A DNA stretch of 64,000 nt from Pochonia chlamydosporia 170 (taxonomy: Eukaryota > Ascomycota > Sordariomycetes > Hypocreales > Clavicipitaceae), in contig NC_035791.1 in assembly GCF_001653235.2 (NCBI RefSeq), positions 1,550,001 through 1,614,000 of the forward strand, in the 5' to 3' direction. Below, piece after piece: positions 40,701-50,960 of this stretch; positions within the stretch are counted from its first letter, which is position 1, and each line of letters opens with the position of its first letter. The notes under the pieces are model-generated. The model had not been told where the DNA came from. It saw only the letters and a program-made list of their open reading frames with translations, and ran no database searches. The position numbers and the translations under genes are program-made.

Positions 40701-43271
40701 TCACCCACTATACCGCCACCTCTTCGCATTCTCATCAACCCACCACCTCGTCACAAAGGCCGCCTCCTCCGCCCACATCGCCGCCTCCCGCCCAAACTCC
40801 CTCTCCACGCTCCCCAAAAACTTGGCAAAGTCAAACGACATGACAACGTGCTCCAGCTCATGCGGATCGGCCTCCACATCCGTAAACCGCCACTCGATGT
40901 CCTCCACCACGGGAACGACGATCCTCCACCGCGGATTCCTGACGCTGCGGGTGGATATCTGGGCGCCGCCGGGGCTCATCACCGTGAATTGCCAGTGTGT
41001 TGTTTCTTTCTCTAGCGGTCGGAGGAGGGAGAGGCCTTCTTGGTTGTGGAGGAGGTGGCGGGCGGCTTGGGAGTCGGACGGGGAGAGGGAGCCCGTCTCG
41101 ATGAGAAGGTCTAGTATCGTTGGGAGAATCGAGATCGAGTTGACGGGCGTGTGGGGGATGTCAATAGCTGGTAAGTGAGGGTGAGAAAACACCAGGGGCA
41201 CGTGGAAGCCTCCTATGTTGGGGATGTAGTATGGTGATATGGCGCCGATTTCGGGCAGCGAGAGCCCGTGGTCGCCTACGAATACGAGGAGGGTTTCGTT
41301 GGTGGCGCCGTTCTTGTCGATGATGTCGAGGATGGTTTGGAGCCAGCTGTCGACGTAGCCTATTCCGTTGAGGTAGTTGGATAGGTCTTCGAGTTTGGAT
41401 TTCGGTGTGAGGGGGGAGTATTCCCCGTCGGGGTGGCTCGACCAGGGGGCGTGGGAGGATCCCGTGAGATGGGTGAGGAAGACGCGCGTGTTGTTCTGCT
41501 GGGCGGTTCTGAAGGCGTCGTCGATGTAGTCTTCGAGAGCGTGCTCTGATAGCGTCTGCCAGCGGACTTCGCTGTAGGGCGTGGGGCCGAACGCCGCGGT
41601 TTCGCTTTGTAGGTATTCTTTGGTGATGTATTCTTCGGGGGTGTAGCCGATGGAGTACATGAGCTCGTCTTGTTTGTCGTATATTCCTGTTACGGAGAGC
41701 ATGTAGGAGGTGTTCCATCTGTATTGGGTGTAGTGCTCCGTGGGTGCTTGATCTTTGGAGTGGTCTAGCGCGTTGAAAGCTTTGAAGATGTGAGGGAGGC
41801 ATGGCTGAGATAAGTGATTCAGGTAGTCTACGTTCATGTCTGCTACGAGGGGAGCCGTGCCGCATAGGGCTCCGATTGTGCTTTTGAGGGTGTATGTGCC
41901 GACGGGGTGGTTGTTGTGGACGTTGATACCGCCACGACGGCGGGTGGTGTTGTGGTTAAAGCCGTCGTTGTATTCGCCCGTGAGGTAATTCGCCGTGGTG
42001 GTGAGGTTGGCAAGTCTGGCTTGCACGTCTGGTGGTATGGTTTTGTTATCCCACGATGCCGCTATGGTGTTCCATATGTAGCCGTCTTTCTTGAGGGGGA
42101 AGACATCCTTCCGCGTACTCTCAAGCATGACGAGCACAACATGTCGAATGTCAACCTGGCCCAGTTTACCACGAAGCTCAGCGAGCAAATCGTCCTCGAA
42201 ATTAGGCTGATTGAACGGGTCGAGTTTGGCGTTGTAATGATCTGTGTGATGGTACCAGTCTTCAAATCCGGGCACCGGGCCATCCTCCTGCGGCAGCCAT
42301 GCCCACTCCTCCGGCGCTGTGAGAGAAGTTTGATCATCCCACATGCGGATAAGACTCTCATTGTACACGGGCCGCAACTTCGCGAGCGTAGACGAGGAGT
42401 GCGTGAGGTCGATGAACGGCAGGAGTATCGGCGTCCAGGACACGAAAATGAAGGACGTGTCGATGGGTCGCACATACGACGCTATCATCTGGACGAGTAT
42501 CATGATACAAGTCGCCCCGTAGAGGAACTTGGTGCATTTTCGTCCCTTGGGAGGGCTCGATTCAGAGGTGACGCTCTTGACCTCTGCGTCGAAGCCTTCC
42601 TCATCGTTCGGGAGGTGGGTGTAGCCTGTTGTTTTTTGAAATCGACCGCACCAGGGGATTTTGCTAAATATAAGTGAAAAGGGCGCCTTTATCGAGTCGA
42701 GGACGAACCCAGCGAGGAAATAGTTGACGCTCATTAACACACATGATGTGAGCATGACAGCCGCAAAAGCAAGGCCAACCGCCCAAAGACCCGTGAGAAG
42801 CAAGCCCCGAGAAGAAGAGTCCGTCGCGACGCTGATATTGCGCCATCGGATTTCAGAGCCGACAAGTGCGAAGAACGACAAGTTTACAGATGAAAGTGCC
42901 AGGTGGATAGCGGTGAGAAATGATGCCACGGTCACGGCTATCAGTTGTAAAGCGCGGTTGCTATTCACGTAGCCTTGAGGCTTATCATCAAGAAGTAGCC
43001 TCAGTAGAAGCAAAATCACTAAATCTTGCGCAAAAAAAGTAGGCCACCATCTCGCGAGGTCACCGGGTGTCATAGCTTCGATGTGAGCGTAAAGATGGAG
43101 GCATTTCGCGGAGAGTATGGACGTCGCGGCAATGGAGAAGAGGAGTCGTCGGCCGGTGAGTCGAGGGAGGAGAGTGAAGGGCTTCAAGATGAAGCGGCCG
43201 GCGTGTAGACAGAGTCTACATGTGGGCGCCATTGGGAAAGGCTGGACCTTGTACGTCGGGTACAGAGGCAA
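40701..43271 (-). CDS. Membrane-bound sulfatase/phosphoglycerol-transferase-like enzyme
   Basis: An intronless 856-aa protein of the alkaline-phosphatase superfamily. The first ~290 residues contain about five or six membrane segments (~44-60, 78-94, 108-135, 157-190, 251-265, 274-290). The catalytic domain begins near 375. HVVLVMLESTRKDVF places a Thr in the E-S-T position (T386) used as nucleophile by LTA-synthase-type enzymes. Later motifs are FLTHLTGSSHAPW (His ~607) and FVGDHGLSLPE (Asp-His ~667-668), both metal-ligand positions in the superfamily. The usual sulfatase Cys/Ser formylglycine motif is not seen, so a phospho-transfer or phosphodiesterase activity is as likely as sulfate removal. 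The start could be 43271 or the in-frame Met at 43232. The gene borders the PaaK/ATP-grasp/TauD group, but a link is not shown. Confidence 0.85.
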   Translation of the reverse strand: MPLYPTYKVQPFPMAPTCRLCLHAGRFILKPFTLLPRLTGRRLLFSIAATSILSAKCLHLYAHIEAMTPGDLARWWPTFFAQDLVILLLLRLLLDDKPQGYVNSNRALQLIAVTVASFLTAIHLALSSVNLSFFALVGSEIRWRNISVATDSSSRGLLLTGLWAVGLAFAAVMLTSCVLMSVNYFLAGFVLDSIKAPFSLIFSKIPWCGRFQKTTGYTHLPNDEEGFDAEVKSVTSESSPPKGRKCTKFLYGATCIMILVQMIASYVRPIDTSFIFVSWTPILLPFIDLTHSSSTLAKLRPVYNESLIRMWDDQTSLTAPEEWAWLPQEDGPVPGFEDWYHHTDHYNAKLDPFNQPNFEDDLLAELRGKLGQVDIRHVVLVMLESTRKDVFPLKKDGYIWNTIAASWDNKTIPPDVQARLANLTTTANYLTGEYNDGFNHNTTRRRGGINVHNNHPVGTYTLKSTIGALCGTAPLVADMNVDYLNHLSQPCLPHIFKAFNALDHSKDQAPTEHYTQYRWNTSYMLSVTGIYDKQDELMYSIGYTPEEYITKEYLQSETAAFGPTPYSEVRWQTLSEHALEDYIDDAFRTAQQNNTRVFLTHLTGSSHAPWSSHPDGEYSPLTPKSKLEDLSNYLNGIGYVDSWLQTILDIIDKNGATNETLLVFVGDHGLSLPEIGAISPYYIPNIGGFHVPLVFSHPHLPAIDIPHTPVNSISILPTILDLLIETGSLSPSDSQAARHLLHNQEGLSLLRPLEKETTHWQFTVMSPGGAQISTRSVRNPRWRIVVPVVEDIEWRFTDVEADPHELEHVVMSFDFAKFLGSVEREFGREAAMWAEEAAFVTRWWVDENAKRWRYSG

Positions 43272-44419
43272 AAGACGAACGAAAAGGGAATATGAGTAAG
43301 CTGGGGATGTGATTGTGATGTGTCTACATATTTAAACTGGGTGTATGTGTGTGGTGTAAGTCTTATTGCGGGAGACGAGGTGAATTACATGGCGTCTGGA
43401 TTGGGCCAGCAGACGGGCTAGGTCTATTGAATGGCATATGTTTGATATATGTGGATGCAAGACACGGAAGGGGATTAAATTCATTCAAGGCGCGATGTTT
43501 GCGTGCCCTCCCTGTGTTGGAAGCTGGTATGTTGGGGTCAATTGGTGCGATTGATAGAGTCGTGACGGTGGGGTGGATGAAGAATGTGTGCAGAGTTGAC
43601 AGGTCGTCTTGTGCTTTCACATTATTCGCGCCATTGGATGTTATGAATGGTTCATCCTCGCCTTGCTTCTGAAATGGCAGAGAAGGCTGGAGAATATCCG
43701 TCGAGTATCTGTTACTCGGTGATGCAATCAGACGATCGGTTGTGGACATGGATGACCCAAGGAGGAGGCTTTACTCGGTAGCCAGGGACCATAGACCCCT
43801 TGAACTGGGTAGCATACACACCAGACCAGACAAGATTAATCTATTTTCCGCATTCAGTGACCACCAGACCACAGTCTCCCTCACTCAATCAACGGTGAAC
43901 TCAGTTTGTTTGATGGCGATGGCATGCAAGACACGCGACCATGAGCCGTATTGGGACTAGCCCCAATCTACCAGTCCGCAAGGAGGCCATTCAATGTTTC
44001 TACTCGCACCCCCTTTATTCCCCCTCTCACTCTCACCTCGACAATCTTTCAAACTACTCAAGTGATTGTCTTCTTTCCTTTGCACATTCCAACCAGAGTG
44101 GCTCACACATCGCCGAGCACAGAAGCAAAGCCACCAAGGAAGCAAGAGATGCATGGTTGTGTCCTGCAGCCGATACAACTTTAAATAGATTTACAATATC
44201 ATGGCAATAACTACATAGAGTAAATGACTGTGGCTGTCAGGTTACATGTACATAAATATGTCTACATTCTCCTTTGCCAAGGCGGATAGTTTGGTCATTT
44301 TGGTGGGACTCAGCCGTCGCGATTGTTAACATGACTCCCATAAGGCTGTGATGGAGAATAGCGACATTACAGAAAACGGCAAGGTCAACGTTCTCCTTTT
44401 TGGTGAACCTTGCTCAGCC
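43272..44419. other. Gene-free stretch between sulfatase promoter and PaaK-like 3' end
   Basis: About 1.1 kb lie between two minus-strand genes. It holds the sulfatase-like promoter, with a TTTAAATATG element near 43328-43337 (plus-strand coordinates), and CCAGACC motifs at 43819-43830 and ~43863. I see no coding sequence. Confidence 0.45.
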
Positions 44420-45968
44420 CTATGTAAATCTATCTACAAGCTTGATTACTTTTCTCCCGGTGGCGCTTCTCTCAAATCCATCCAAACCATCTACATACAC
44501 TATCCGGAAACGGTGCTCATTCGCCGAATATACATGAAAGAAATGTCGCAATTCGGTCGTGCATTTCCCCTCAGCAGACTTGGATGAACAAAGAACACGG
44601 ATCTCAAGTCCCGCCTCCTGAGATGGCTCCATTCTATACAGAATGACCTGCCACTGAAGCACGCCAAAGTCTTCTTTGCTCATCATGGCGGCCACATTTT
44701 CAAACTCGATACAAAATCCATCCCAGTCGAAGCCGAACCGACGATCACGGCCCTCGAGGCGGACAATTTTGAGGTATGCCCAGTCCGCTTCAGGGACAAC
44801 GGAGCGAGCACTTTCAGGTAGCGAATGAAGAGATCCAATATCACCAGTGATGTACCGTACCAGCGGATTGCGCAAACGACACAATGAGGTTTGCACTATA
44901 ATGCCCTTTTCGCCATCTTGGAGACATTCCGTGGTTGAGCCGCTCTCAACACAGGCCTCGGGCAAGATTTCGATGAGCATGTGTCTTGTATCATACACAA
45001 AGTCTGCCGTGGCAGTCTTTATCTCTCTCCCGCATAGTTCCGTGCTGCTGACGCCCCAGGGACCAGCTTCCGCGCTTCCTAAGAGGGAATAGATCCTAGC
45101 ATTGCTCCCTAGCGTCTCTTTAATATGTAGTCGTTGCGCGGCCGTGAGCACTTCGGACGAGTAAATGACTTTGGTCAGGTTTACGCGTTGCCTCTCCTCG
45201 GGAGACAGGGTTGATATGTGATGCACGACTTGGATAATCTGGCTCCCGTCGCCAGTGAGTACATTCACATGGTAGCTAATCAGGAGCCGGACAACTTCGG
45301 CTGGGCTCATGTAGTTTCCAGCGGCCAAAACTGTTGCTCCGGCGTTTTCAAATATTTCAAGCATAAGGTCTAATGATCTAAAGTTGGTCAACCTTCGGTA
45401 TTCCTACTTGACAAGATTGTGTAATTTCATTCACGGCCGCCATCAGACAAGCCTTCTTTGCAATAGATCACCACTTACCTGTACAGTTGGCCGGCACAAT
45501 GGGTAGTAAGCACCCAGTCATCGTCCTCTATTAAGCCTGTCGTCCTGAGAAATCGGCCAAAAGAAGCTCGTTGTCTGCGATTTTCGTGAACATCAGTTGC
45601 AAAGAAGAGCGGCTGCCCACCACTACCTCCTCCGGTTACACTAGTATAAACACCACGACGATATGTATTTTTGACATTGGTATCGTTGACTAAACGCTGG
45701 ATGACTTCGTAGCTGGAATGAATTATCCCATTTTAGTGATCTGGTAGGCTTCAAAAGGCGCCCACTCCTTCATTTTTAGTACTTACAGTTCTTTCTTGCT
45801 AAGAAGGTTTCGCGATTTCAGCCCAGGTTGATCGGTCTGGCCAACCTTTGAGCCACGCAGCGCTTCGATGGTTTCTGCATTGGGGGGATAAGAGATGGTT
45901 GAATTGTAAAACGGATGAGCATTAGCGATGGCCAAAACTTCTTCTAAGCAATATGCGTCAGTAGCCAT
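44420..45968 (-). CDS. PaaK-like adenylate-forming enzyme (phenylacetate-CoA ligase family)
   Basis: Predicted 462 aa from exons 45787..45968, 45479..45712 and 44420..45392. Joins give NLLSKKELYEVIQRLVNDTN and AGQLYRLTNFRSLDLML. The nucleotide-binding loop reads YTSVTGGGSGGQPLFFATD (~83-101), the PaaK form of the TSGTTG loop. Further motifs are IYSLLGSAEAGPWG (~239-252), LVRYITGDIGSL (~316-327) and the hinge-like RLEGRDRRFGFDWDG (~350-364). Length matches stand-alone PaaK enzymes. It should activate a carboxylic acid as an AMP ester, with CoA or another acceptor taking the acyl group. The substrate is unknown. An in-frame Met at 46079 would add 37 residues. It is head to head with the ATP-grasp-like gene and is likely part of a small biosynthetic group. 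Confidence 0.8.
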
Positions 45969-47255
45969 GGCTATGTGAAAATCCGTAACCAAGAAAAAAA
46001 GCTTTTGCAGCGAATTGTCCCAAGAGTGACGGAGTGTTTCTCTTACGATGGAGTTTTGTACGGATCGAAGCTGAGTCATGTGGGATCGCAGGAGGAATGA
46101 TCGAAATGGAATCTTCCAATCTCTTTGTCGAGGGCCTCTTATGACCCATCACGTACAATCAATTTATCAACATGGAGCCCTATAACGGTCACATTTTCAT
46201 AGGCTTCTCCGATGCGACGTGGGTACTTCACCTTGCCGAGCTGAAAGAGGCGAACATGTCTAGCGCATCATTCTCATGCACCGGCATATGCAATGCAAGC
46301 AAAGGTATGCTTGTGATGGTCGTCGTCCTTGGTGGCAAAGCAGGGAACTGGTGATATTGACCAGCTGCATGCATTCTTCAAAGCATGAGTCCCCATTTCG
46401 AATACCAGGGCGGTTGTTTGTATTTTTCGTTCCTAGTGCTCCGCTCTCCATAATTTGCTTTGTGCTTCAATAAATGCCTGCACGTCAGCACCAGATTTCG
46501 TTCGCTTCCTACCTTACCATTGACAAGGCAGGCAAGCTGAAAGTAGATGAAGCCTGGTCAGATCTGACAAGTAAGCGAGGCCAGCTAGCGGCTGAGCTAC
46601 TGATTCCTTGTCCCAAGACTCAGAATAGAAGTCACGTTGCGGATGCCCAAGAACTGATTTTCGTTCAATCGGAATTCGTGGAAACAGAAAAGGGCATAGC
46701 TCGATGGTGGTGCAAGACTACTTCGTACGCCGTGTCATCGTCACACTTCACATCTCGTCTAGGAGTGCCGAGGCTATACACCTGAACCAGAAAACTTTTT
46801 CATTAACTTCACGAGATCTTTGAATGAAGAGACCGATGTTTCAGACCGAAGATTTAGTTGCAAAAAGTTCTTTGCTCCTTGTACCCATTTATCACGGCAG
46901 GGTCTTGGCTGGGGGGACCTGGGTGAGCCATGGGTATAGACAGCTCCACAACCATCAGTTAGACCAGGGACCTGGTTAAGTTTCCGGAAAATTCATCTAT
47001 CGACGCTCAAGATGGACACAGGATGCCGAGTATAAAAACGGGGGAAGATGTTGAAAAGATGTGGTAAAGCCACAATGCCCCAGCAGACATCTTGACGCTC
47101 CTGGACCAGACCAGACCAATTTTCAAACATTGAAACCATCAGCTCCTCCATTCGGAAGTAGTTCCTTCCATTTCTTGCCCTCGTCACTGACATAAGCCCC
47201 AACCAACCAGACCAGAACCCAACATTGAAAGAATCATTTCCAACAGTTGGCCAGG
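45969..47255. promoter_or_regulatory. Shared upstream region of the PaaK-like and ATP-grasp-like genes
   Basis: These 1.29 kb separate two divergent start codons and must contain both promoters. The right end carries two CCAGACC clusters (47104-47118 and 47205-47217), the nearer only ~40 bp before the ATP-grasp-like ATG. The middle holds a possible gene remnant (46172-46793), listed separately. Confidence 0.5.
46172..46785 (+). pseudogene. Possible degenerate gene or unresolved short gene
   Basis: Three protein-like islands follow one another on the plus strand in three different frames. An ATG-initiated 44-codon segment begins MEPYNGHIFIGFSDATWVLH (46172-46304). A short island reads SSLVAKQGTGDIDQLHAFFK (46323-46382). 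A longer island begins HQISFASYLTIDKAGKLKVD and contains EAWSDLTSKRGQLAAELLIP and VETEKGIARWWCKTTSYAV, up to a stop at 46783-46785. I could not find intron positions that join them in phase, which suggests frameshifts and decay. I recognise no family. It may equally be chance coding bias in the shared promoter region. Confidence 0.3.
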
Positions 47256-49037
47256 ATGGAAACACCTATCAATCCCTTACTCCGGCAAATTCACATTGGA
47301 CTCGGCCCTAATGGGTACGAGCCGGTGGCATCTTCTATGACGGCAAACAGCACCACGTATATAAGAGAATTTGAACAATTAACCGCAAACCTTGTCCGCA
47401 TTTGTCCCGGGCATATCTGGCCAGGAGAATCGTACAAATCTATCTGTCCGCGTCCAATTCTTATCAACCAGGGCCACCAAGCACATCTTAAGCGTCTGCA
47501 TGAAGCCCTGACAAAGGCCATCACCGACATTGTGCAAAGGTGGTGGTCAGATACGGAAGCGAACTTTCCCTCGCGCATGCCACTTGCAAAAGAGGAGGAA
47601 GATTTGTTGCTATGGATAGAAGACCAAGTCTCTCAAGGCAGAATGCGGCCCTTCTCAGCCTGCCGGGGCTCTTGGAGGCCAGATTTTCTCATCAAAGACA
47701 ATTTGACCGCCACCCCGAATGGTATCATCAACGACCAAGCGGGTGAAAGCGAACTCTTTTGCATAACCGAGATCAACGCCAGATTTTCCTTCAATGGCTG
47801 TCTGCACGAAGCTCTTGGTCAAGAAGCACTTAATGACATGGGTATGGACAAGCTTGGTTTGGCTAGTGCAACGAATTCAGCTCAGGTAAGTACGACGTGG
47901 CTTACTCTGCCATTTTCTCTTTTCATTGCATCGTGCTTGGCGCTATTGTACGAACCAGTCCCACTGGGATTTGCTTCTTGGTTCTTTCTCGCTGGGTCCG
48001 ACACCTCTTTCTGATACGTCAGGAAGGCTTATTTACGAGATTGCTTGCAGAGCTAATGCATACGGGTTTTTTTTTTGTAGATGTTGGACGGATTGATGTC
48101 ATTGTTCCGGCAAGGCCTTCCGTTGCATCTGCTGAAGGATGCAGAGCACGGCTTCGACATCCATATGTTCATGGATATAATGCAACGGCGCTTTGGTGTG
48201 ACAACACGACCAATCACACCTGCAGATCTTAGATTGGTGCCCGATCCCGAGAACGAGACTGGGTTTAAGCTCTGCTGTCTGGCCAGCCACAAGAATGGAT
48301 CAAACCAAGATACTGGCTCCCATCCCGCCCAAGTTGGATCAACAGTACACCAGGCTGGGAAGAAGACAGTCACATGGATTAATGATGCTGGTGAATGGGT
48401 TGAAGAAATTCACCAAGTTGGGCTCGAGCTGCATCAACGGGAGATTGTAGCATTGGATGCAGAGATGCTGCGACAGGTGAGTCTCCGGTGTTTCAACGAC
48501 ATGCGAACAGTGCTGTTAGTCCATGACAAAAGGATGCTGGGCATGGTGAAGCAGGAACTCGAGAATCTCGTAAACCGGGGAGTTCTAACTCTCGCCGAGG
48601 CTCAGGTTCTCGCCAAGGGTATTGCAGACACCGCAAACCCCGGTTCGCCGGAGATGGGTGAGGTGCTGAAATTGACCAAGGCGAACCCGGAACTGAGGAA
48701 GCAATATCTTCTCAAACCTGTACGCAGTGGGAAGGGTGCTGGTATCGTCTTTGGTGACGAGACCAGCCCAGATGAGTGGGTTGCGGCACTCGAGAATCTC
48801 CAGAGCCCCGTTCTGGTTCCAGGGGTATCCTGCGTTGTGCAGCGCCGGATCACACCCCGGCTATATGATGTGATAATAAAGTCCTCTGGCGACAGGGTTC
48901 GATATCCTCTGGTTGGAACGTATCATGCTATTCACGGAAACTTGCTCGGACTGGGTATCTGGCGTACCAGCGCCGATCGGATTTGCGCCCTCAGCACAGG
49001 AGGATCTTGGATGTGCTCCGTTATCAGCCGGGGGTAA
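47256..49037 (+). CDS. ATP-grasp-like ligase with permuted motif order
   Basis: Predicted 528 aa from exons 47256..47885 and 48081..49037 (clean GTAAGT and TTGTAG ends, phase 0). Residues ~150-181 contain RPDFLI and ITEINARFSFNG, where E-I-N looks like the metal-binding end of an ATP-grasp fold. Much later, ~211-222 codons into exon 2 (residues ~421-432), comes LLKPVRSGKGAGIVFGDE, which resembles the ATP-binding Lys and glycine loop. VLVPGVSCVVQRRITPRLYD follows, as the hinge acid region might. This order is reversed from classic ATP-grasp, as in circularly permuted members. The end is LVGTYHAIHGNLLGLGIW then GGSWMCSV. ATP-grasp enzymes join a carboxylate to an amine or thiol through an acyl phosphate. 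I assign the fold from motifs only. Intron 47886-48080 contains a T-rich acceptor. Confidence 0.7.
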
Positions 49038-50042
49038 TACCGGTCACAAACACGCAGATTCTTTGTTATTAGTCACGTTTGTCTCGGTTCGGGACGCCTT
49101 TTACTCCTTTTGTCAATACGAAAAGTCTTTCTTGAATCTACCCTTGTCAGCGGCCAAGTATAGCCTTGTGTGCTGCGCGAGATGAGCCACGGTTGTTCAT
49201 TGCTCTTCTGATTAGCCAGTCACTTCCGTCGTGAGCCGTGAAGGTCCAATCCAGGCGCTTCAGAGTTCCCATTGTTTCAAAATCTATTTCATTTCGTTGA
49301 GAGCTGGTAGCCACTATTTACGGAGGACTAATTATACGGACACGATGCTGCAACAAGCCAATCAATGGCTGCGGCTGACGTGTTTTTACACAAGCTCTAT
49401 GGTGTTACATGACCATGCCTTGTTGTATCTTCGTCATATTGAATATTTTACCTGCATCAACTCTTTACGTTATGGTTATCCCCATGGCCTGAACAAGAAA
49501 GCAAGAACTACTTGGAAATACTAGATTCTTTACCCCAAAAAGAATCATGGCAGTCACTCTCAGCCCCCACCTAGTGATATGTACCGCCGCTGTTACGCAG
49601 CACAACGCACCGACCTCCCATCTTGAGGATGTTTTACTTTGTTTATGCTGGTATCATCCACATGCATGTACTCTAGTTGTGGCGGTGTCTTTGCTTCAGT
49701 TCAGCTCTACGGCCTGGGATGAACCGGGATGACCGAACCTGCAATGGCTACTTAAGATGGGCTGAGGTGTGGATTTGCAGGGCCAGGCGAGCCGGTTGTG
49801 CATGGGTCCATACAGCAGCAATGAGTCTGGATATTACGAAACATTGGGATTTTCTTTCGTCTTTGAACCGAGGCGACTATGTGGTGGCCGGAGAGTATGG
49901 AGAAACAAAGAAAAGTTGATAATAGGCCGCCAGGGTGAATCATTCTCGCCATATCGTCGATTCCATAACTCTTGTTCCCAATCTCCTGTCTATCAGTTGA
50001 ATCTATCAGATTTCCAAGCAGAAAACTTAAACTTTACTCATC
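49038..50042. other. Gene-free stretch, 1.0 kb
   Basis: This is the spacer between the ATP-grasp-like and TauD-like genes, both on the plus strand. It should carry one terminator and the TauD-like promoter. I see no coding or RNA gene; ORFs here are below 100 aa and domain-free. Confidence 0.45.
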
Positions 50043-50960
50043 ATGACTCTACTTACACCCTTCCGGTCAAGTGCCATATTCACCCTCAGACGAATACCAA
50101 ACCCATCAAATCGCAAGGTCTACACATCCCACCACCGTCATCTAACTACATCGACAATCCTCCCCCATCTCCAAGCCCCTTCTCTGCTCGAGGCCCGAAA
50201 CCCCAAACACACAAGTCTCATCGCCTCACACCTCCAAGAACAAGGCATCCTCAAAGTCACACTCGGGTTCAACGACCCCCAAAGTACATACCTTCAACAC
50301 CTCATCGACTCGCTCCACCGCCATCATGGCCACAAGCTGCCCATCTCTCACAGCGCCAGTCGCGGTTGGTTCTGGGACGTCCGTCCCGCCAACGACAACT
50401 TCCAAACGGAGAATCACCAGGCTCGCTCAGAAACAATGAACGAGTTCCCCTGGCACACGGACTGCAGCTACGAGAACCCGACACCGCGCTTCTTCGCGCT
50501 ACAGGTCCTTCGACACGATCACCTCGGAGGAGGCACACTGTCCGTCACCAGCGTAGCCAGTCTGACAGACATTTTATCCGAATCCACGAGACGGGCCTTG
50601 CAAAAGGACGAGTTCCAGATCCACATACCCAGGGAATTCGTCAAAAAGGCCGAACAAAAGTCCATCACGGGCAGGATACTAGCCAGAAGTCAAGGCCAAA
50701 GTATCATGCGGTTCAGGCAAGATATTCTTACGCCCTTGACAGAGGATGCCAGTGCCGCACTGACCGAATTAAACGATACTTTGAAAAAGGTGCGCTCTTC
50801 AAACCACGCAGTTCATCTGACGGCGTCGGATCTCCCTACCGGTTCGGTAATACTAGTCGACAACTTTAGATGGTTACATGCAAGGAATCACGTCAAAGAT
50901 CCGGAGAGACATCTCCGCCGAGTACGATGGGATGCTGTCCCCTTTGGAAGCGATCCGTAA
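50043..50960 (+). CDS. TauD-like Fe(II)/2-oxoglutarate dioxygenase
   Basis: An intronless 305-aa protein. Iron ligands are visible as H138 and D140 in FPWHTDCSYENPTPRFF and a distal H279 in VDNFRWLHARNHV, followed by the 2-oxoglutarate-binding Arg region (ERHLRRVRWD, ~288-297). This is the HxD...H facial triad with the TauD/TfdA core. Such enzymes hydroxylate, desaturate or epoxidise small molecules while decarboxylating 2-oxoglutarate. The first ~38 residues (MTLLTPFRSSAIFTLRRIPN, then RKVYTSHHRHLTTST) are rich in Arg/Ser/Thr with no acidic residue, as in a mitochondrial presequence. The substrate is unknown. It lies 1.0 kb downstream of the ATP-grasp-like gene in the same direction and may act in the same pathway. 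Confidence 0.88.
   Translation: MTLLTPFRSSAIFTLRRIPNPSNRKVYTSHHRHLTTSTILPHLQAPSLLEARNPKHTSLIASHLQEQGILKVTLGFNDPQSTYLQHLIDSLHRHHGHKLPISHSASRGWFWDVRPANDNFQTENHQARSETMNEFPWHTDCSYENPTPRFFALQVLRHDHLGGGTLSVTSVASLTDILSESTRRALQKDEFQIHIPREFVKKAEQKSITGRILARSQGQSIMRFRQDILTPLTEDASAALTELNDTLKKVRSSNHAVHLTASDLPTGSVILVDNFRWLHARNHVKDPERHLRRVRWDAVPFGSDP

Follow-up and report, generated by a model that had tools for sequence, protein, structure and literature searches.

The question raised by this locus is whether three neighbouring enzyme genes, here called A, B and C, act in one pathway and, if so, what that pathway would make. The genes lie at positions 44420-50960 of a 64,000-nucleotide stretch of the Pochonia chlamydosporia 170 genome (positions 1,550,001 to 1,614,000 of NC_035791.1), which is referred to below as the window and was placed on contig C2 of a 44.2-megabase assembly of 49 contigs. 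By analogy with a pathway described in Aspergillus flavus, we put the probability that A, B and C constitute an E-64-type biosynthetic cassette, with an epoxysuccinyl-amino acid-amine as the predicted product, at about 0.9. This reading is carried by the gene structures, the family membership of the three proteins, the retention of their catalytic residues and the conservation of the neighbourhood elsewhere. The gene group is real and mostly explained, being an instance of a pathway already described in 2025. An initial annotation of this DNA had proposed a small biosynthetic group of three enzymes in one pathway; the E-64 cassette matches that proposal, in which the E-64 family itself was not recognised.

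The published pathway and the three-gene locus

E-64 is a standard cysteine-protease reagent. Its fungal pathway was published in 2025 by Liu et al., who described the cp1 and cp2 clusters of A. flavus for E-64-type cysteine-protease inhibitors (PMC12568646). According to the main text and legends of that paper, the pathway opens with Cp1A, which converts fumaric acid into its epoxide, (2S,3S)-trans-epoxysuccinic acid; Cp1B then couples this acid to an L-amino acid via an acyl phosphate with formation of adenosine diphosphate, and Cp1D, in the last step, converts the resulting pseudodipeptide into an adenosine monophosphate (AMP) ester and then, with an amine, into an amide (PMC12568646). In A. 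nidulans, epoxysuccinyl compounds were lost on omission of Cp1A, Cp1B or Cp1D, and cpA, cpB and cpD together were necessary and sufficient (PMC12568646). The Cp1 and Cp2 sets are about 50% identical and both yield E-64 analogues; the pathway is reported in more than 100 fungal species, with Metarhizium anisopliae listed among the cluster carriers in the legend of Extended Data Fig. 3 (PMC12568646).

We infer by analogy that A, B and C perform the A. flavus reactions. Gene C would oxidise fumaric acid (perhaps succinic acid too) to (2S,3S)-trans-epoxysuccinic acid, gene B would phosphorylate one carboxylate of the epoxysuccinate and link it to a hydrophobic L-amino acid through the amino group of the latter, and gene A would adenylate the free carboxylate of the pseudodipeptide and then amidate it, the amine probably being agmatine, putrescine or cadaverine from the polyamine pool. 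Such a compound would alkylate the active-site cysteine of papain-like proteases. The initial annotation had the reactions running in a different order, as adenylation, ligation and oxidation of the product, which does not agree with the published sequence of epoxidation of free fumaric acid, ATP-grasp ligation and adenylation (PMC12568646).

The features of the locus are as follows.

44420..45968, minus strand: gene A, predicted Cp1D-type amide bond synthetase (PaaK-like AMP-forming ligase), 457 amino acids in the splice model; three exons on the minus strand at 45968-45787, 45712-45479 and 45377-44420
45969..47255, no strand: A-B intergenic region, 1287 base pairs (bp) between the start codons, upstream of both genes
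47256..49037, plus strand: gene B, predicted Cp1B-type ATP-grasp ligase, 528 amino acids in the splice model; two exons on the plus strand at 47256-47885 and 48081-49037
50043..50960, plus strand: gene C, TauD/clavaminate-synthase-like Fe(II)/alpha-ketoglutarate oxygenase, predicted trans-epoxysuccinate synthase (Cp1A-type); a single exon of 305 amino acids at 50043-50960, plus strand
50043..50159, plus strand: codons 1-39 of gene C, an acid-free and arginine-rich N-terminal extension, from composition

All three frames are open in the spliced models, whose ends fall exactly on the limits first given for the group, 44420 and 50960. A and B are divergent, head to head, and C follows B in tandem on the same strand after 1005 bp; both the common upstream region, annotated at about 1.3 kilobases (kb), and the tandem position of the third gene were therefore as initially described. 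The trio also contains no gene for a nonribosomal peptide synthetase (NRPS) or a polyketide synthase, again as annotated.

The locus holds the same three kinds of enzyme as Cp1A, Cp1B and Cp1D, and Cp1B aligns with nearly the whole of B. It differs from cp1 and cp2 in showing no match to a PF02784-type decarboxylase, in its altered B pocket and in that B is about 50% identical. For a fourth gene, no PF02784 match was found within the window, and the sole match in the genome lies on another contig (other decarboxylase families were not searched). The corresponding A. flavus gene, cpC, encodes a pyridoxal phosphate-dependent decarboxylase; Cp1C was dispensable in A. nidulans, and the legend of Extended Data Fig. 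3 singles out cpC as the gene that lacks conservation (PMC12568646). Since cpC is both dispensable and non-conserved, the cassette is not defined by it.

The three enzyme families

Gene B can be compared with the A. flavus enzyme directly. Its residues 2-525 match the crystallised 'Ligase Cp1B' (PDB 9CJN) at 553 bits (E 5e-165), a near end-to-end match to a solved ATP-grasp ligase that bears out the ATP-grasp call of the initial annotation. With the Pfam library used here, B had no match; PF28486, pre-computed on relatives of B, matched neither B nor P0001 and is apparently missing from that library. In BLASTP, B is 50% identical to P0078, a protein listed as A. flavus. We took P0078 as a stand-in for Cp1B because all eight residues R139, D141, E163, N165, F175, V228, V477 and I488 sit at their published positions. 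Eukaryotic glutathione synthetases are circularly permuted. Cp1B itself has been compared with homoglutathione synthetase, and its residues R139, D141, E163 and N165 are proposed to serve in acyl-phosphate formation; alanine substitution of any of the four abolished or much weakened activity (PMC12568646). In the alignment they correspond to R141, D143, E172 and N174 of gene B, so that the catalytic residues are kept. Of 120 listed relatives, 119 also have all four; the one exception is a fragmentary row that does not cover the region.

For gene C, the TauD family call was upheld by a match to PF02668 at 46.2 bits, against a cut-off of 27. The predicted structure has a mean predicted local distance difference test score (pLDDT) of 77.2, being weak in its N-terminal part and near residues 103-126. 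A structure search with it came closest to KDO1, asparagine oxygenase and clavaminate synthase, and by profile, too, asparagine oxygenase and clavaminate synthase are among the nearest solved relatives, along with glutarate hydroxylase. Gene C has its fold and metal triad in common with the clavaminate synthase-like/TauD oxygenases (PDB 2OG7, 1DS0 and 6F2A), from which it differs in an identity below 20% and in fumarate as its predicted substrate. All 121 aligned rows, counting P0241 as a repeat of the window protein, keep H138, D140, H279, R289 and R293; going by the fold, we take these residues to include the HxD...H metal triad and the cosubstrate arginine. By sequence and fold, gene C is an Fe/alpha-ketoglutarate oxygenase whose metal triad is intact.

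Gene A is assigned by more distant resemblances. Nothing rose above the Pfam cut-offs, whether the search was made by exon (with the middle exon left out) or with the whole protein. In NCBIfam, models of AMP-dependent coenzyme A (CoA) ligases matched below their cut-offs, the best being the DVU_1553 family (E 5.7e-14), and the PaaK model TIGR02155 gave E 1.6e-09, also under its cut-off. PaaK chains in the PDB matched A weakly, and a profile built from 35 of its relatives reached PDB phenylacetate-CoA ligases with a best E of 6e-06. The relative P0121, 69% identical to A, has a predicted structure with a mean pLDDT of 85.3. In a Foldseek search with this model PaaK1 ranked first (E 6.4e-22, template modelling score about 0.6, root-mean-square deviation 6.9), and rows 1-37 were all PaaK enzymes, PaaK-type AMP ligases or other acyl-CoA-ligase-like enzymes. 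Adenylation-type motifs are conserved in the alignment of the family, and one of the 120 listed relatives, P0224, has a pre-computed AMP-binding domain (PF00501). Among the matches listed, named relatives of A reach 69% identity over the full length. The profile results and the fold of the relative point to a PaaK-type AMP-forming ligase of the ANL/PaaK fold, in keeping with the 'PaaK-like' label that the gene had been given. In comparison with the PaaK phenylacetate-CoA ligases and AMP ligases (PDB 2Y27 and 6SIW), the family of A shows a weak profile likeness and P0121 a likeness of fold, while identity is about 18% and the acceptor would be an amine, as for Cp1D, instead of CoA.

Conserved neighbourhood and competing explanations

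We examined the neighbourhood in other fungi using the best 120 of 399 matches to B, of 459 to A and of 552 to C, with equality of the 'longest contig' length given for each row standing in for co-location, and one B row without a contig left out. A and B were found together on 39 contigs, A and C on 22, B and C on 24, and all three on 13. The locus tags of the trio are consecutive in six of these 13 contigs (from Fusarium nematophilum, F. zealandicum, Trichoderma viride, T. cornu-damae, Cylindrodendrum hubeiense and Neonectria ditissima); the names in the other seven do not permit the test. Adjacent homologues in related genomes, whose absence was one of the two findings that the initial annotation would have taken as refuting the group, are thus present. 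In M. acridum, the tags MAC_00420 (C) and MAC_00422 (A) are compatible with B in the middle, as in the window. Annotated fusions of a TauD domain occur in 4 of the 360 listed rows, once to B (P0002) and three times to A (P0152, P0154 and P0157); these may be real or may be merged gene models, and in both cases they point to adjacency.

Among the listed matches, Metarhizium proteins are the nearest named relatives of all three genes, at about 64-69% identity, and the E-64-like cluster of M. anisopliae is among the closest known systems; the window adds a complete cassette from a fungus with such relatives. No further paper on the E-64 pathway in Metarhizium was found among the open-access papers listed. 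Two fragments still closer to the window's proteins, P0004 and P0123 (96-97% identical), both lie on one contig of 20144 bases.

A family search identified a sulfatase-family gene at 40707-43331 on the A side, and on the C side glutamine-rich frames run from 52415 onward, the first of them without a Pfam match. The A-B gap holds no convincing extra gene; a 103-amino-acid open reading frame at 46474-46785 has no family above cut-off. Repeats detected in the gaps were limited to short palindromes and short families of two copies. A promoter scan found 2 sites where 1.6 were expected, a result that is uninformative here as the scan is built for bacterial promoters. The gaps of 1.0 and 1.3 kb and the seemingly unrelated flanking sulfatase-family and glutamine-rich genes are what one might see if A, B and C were chance neighbours with unrelated functions. 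Such an accident is scarcely credible, given that the co-location is repeated in other genera, with consecutive tags and annotated fusions, and that the published three-gene cassette proved necessary and sufficient in A. nidulans (PMC12568646).

Several points weigh against the assignment to the E-64 pathway. Most of the 286 distinct contigs in the three match lists together hold one family only, among the matches listed; this is weak evidence either way because each list is a best 120. The gene order is A-B-C in the window and A-C-B in the six genomes with consecutive tags. Genes C and A are assigned to Cp1A and Cp1D indirectly, via family, fold and neighbourhood. Homologues of Cp1B and Cp1D also occur in clusters that are not homologous to those of E-64 (PMC12568646). 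Finally, the proposed amino-acid pocket of Cp1B is formed by F175, V228, V477 and I488 (PMC12568646), and B differs at all four named positions (F175H, V228F, V477I and I488L).

The last two points would also suit a cassette that yields an NRPS-free pseudodipeptide amide with another acid (fumaryl, malyl or another diacid) and no true epoxide, and the same can be said of the promiscuity of Cp1B and Cp1D, which gave malic and fumaric acid analogues in A. nidulans without Cp1A (PMC12568646). We regard such a product as quite unlikely. Gene C is intact, with its metal and arginine residues conserved, A, B and C co-occur as a trio in other fungi, and some of the solved enzymes nearest to C by profile oxidise small dicarboxylic or amino acids. 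As to the pocket itself, all four of its residues in B (H184, F235, I503 and L514) differ from those of Cp1B, and three of them are still hydrophobic. Histidine is the majority residue at the first position (93 of 118 printed rows of B relatives), and phenylalanine is uncommon at the second (6 of 118). Our guess is that the bulkier pocket residue in B favours an amino acid with a smaller side chain.

Compartment, targets and a second ligase

Within the proposed E-64-type cassette, the N-terminus of gene C has an unusual composition: of residues 1-39, six are arginine or lysine and none is acidic. Over 104 of the 121 aligned rows (17 were dropped for a stretch of fewer than 15 residues or for want of a methionine start), the stretch before the LPHL motif has on average 6.8 basic and 0.9 acidic residues, and 49 rows have no acidic residue in it. 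Pieces of equal length from elsewhere in the same C proteins average 5.4 basic and 5.7 acidic residues; for 120 relatives of B and 120 of A, the mean over the first 40 residues is 3.3 basic and 5.1-5.3 acidic. The pattern R-x-[FYLI]-[AST] is typical of fungal mitochondrial cleavage sites. It is present in 45 of the 99 C rows whose N-terminal stretch has at least 25 residues, against a shuffle mean of 24 and a maximum of 37 in 300 rounds, with the pattern having been picked after the sequences were inspected and the rounds counting as non-independent trials because the rows are related. The helical moment of the C N-termini is only mildly raised (mean z 0.9; window protein 1.0), and a secretion-signal-like run of at least 8 hydrophobic residues was found in none of the 99 rows.

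Judged by composition, the acid-poor, arginine-rich N-terminus of the C family resembles a mitochondrial presequence in most of the rows whose start is usable, and we read it as a putative one. Fumarate, succinate and alpha-ketoglutarate arise in mitochondria. A presequence of this kind would be sensible because C would use fumarate and alpha-ketoglutarate; the warhead would then be made in mitochondria, with A and B in the cytosol. The main text of the A. flavus study contains no words on mitochondria, compartment, signal peptide, localisation, truncation or N-terminal (PMC12568646). Cp1A made in Escherichia coli was active (PMC12568646), so import would be dispensable for activity in vitro. 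A presequence on C would bear on the design of production hosts.

With respect to targets, a six-frame genome search that ignored introns gave zero matches to the papain family (PF00112) at E 0.001. As there is no papain-type match in the organism's own genome, the product is suggested to act on other organisms. Should the host live as Metarhizium does, the proteases inhibited could belong to insects, nematodes or competitors in the soil. Bleomycin hydrolase is itself a target of E-64. Two genome matches to this family (PF03051), 63% identical to each other, were found at the following positions.

C4:3631861-3633153: bleomycin hydrolase gene
C2:1206846-1208132: bleomycin hydrolase gene

Self-resistance through a duplicated E-64 target was considered, but one of these genes is on a different contig and the other lies at a distance of about 390 kb, and a protective role is no more than a speculation. 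The copy on C4 reads QNSWG and that on C2 reads QNSHG, at what we take to be the site of the catalytic asparagine of bleomycin hydrolase.

The genome search also revealed a paralogue of gene A at C10:464266-465807, identical to A at 253 of 456 aligned positions (55%).

C10:464260-465954, minus strand: second amide-bond-synthetase paralogue

No second ATP-grasp or epoxidase gene was found, B and C having one locus each in a search that was loose and on an assembly that is possibly incomplete; a second B-type locus was also absent when the genome was probed with the M. album ATP-grasp protein P0016, from the other cluster type, and no second complete cassette was found in the genome. A tree was built from 31 ligases, namely A, the C10 copy and 29 relatives picked by hand from the 120 listed. 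In it, A groups with one Metarhizium set (100/99). The C10 copy belongs to a group of ten rows (97/91), together with Tolypocladium, Conoideocrella and a second Metarhizium set that includes MAM_07700; the branching order inside this ten-row group was not resolved. MAM_07700 adjoins an ATP-grasp gene, MAM_07701, on the same contig. Because the C10 copy falls with a ligase that has such a neighbour, a second cassette may once have existed in this lineage, its final enzyme having been retained and the partners lost.

The presence of an AMP-ligase on C10 without the expected partners having been found indicates that loss may have occurred in the lineage, and the cassette in the window might likewise be a relic, intact in sequence and either silent or no longer productive. 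The three open frames and the kept catalytic residues make this highly improbable. Taking the window to hold a working E-64-type cassette, the C10 ligase could use the pseudodipeptide made by B. A tentative extension, which we hold to be doubtful, is that a mitochondrial epoxidase exports epoxysuccinate to cytosolic ligases and that the two amide bond synthetases, A and the C10 copy, draw on the single product of B and give rise to two sets of protease inhibitors. About 8-12 kb from the C10 ligase, two further frames were named by eye.

L023:4383-6098: GMC-oxidoreductase-like frame
L023:6653-7792: methyltransferase-like frame

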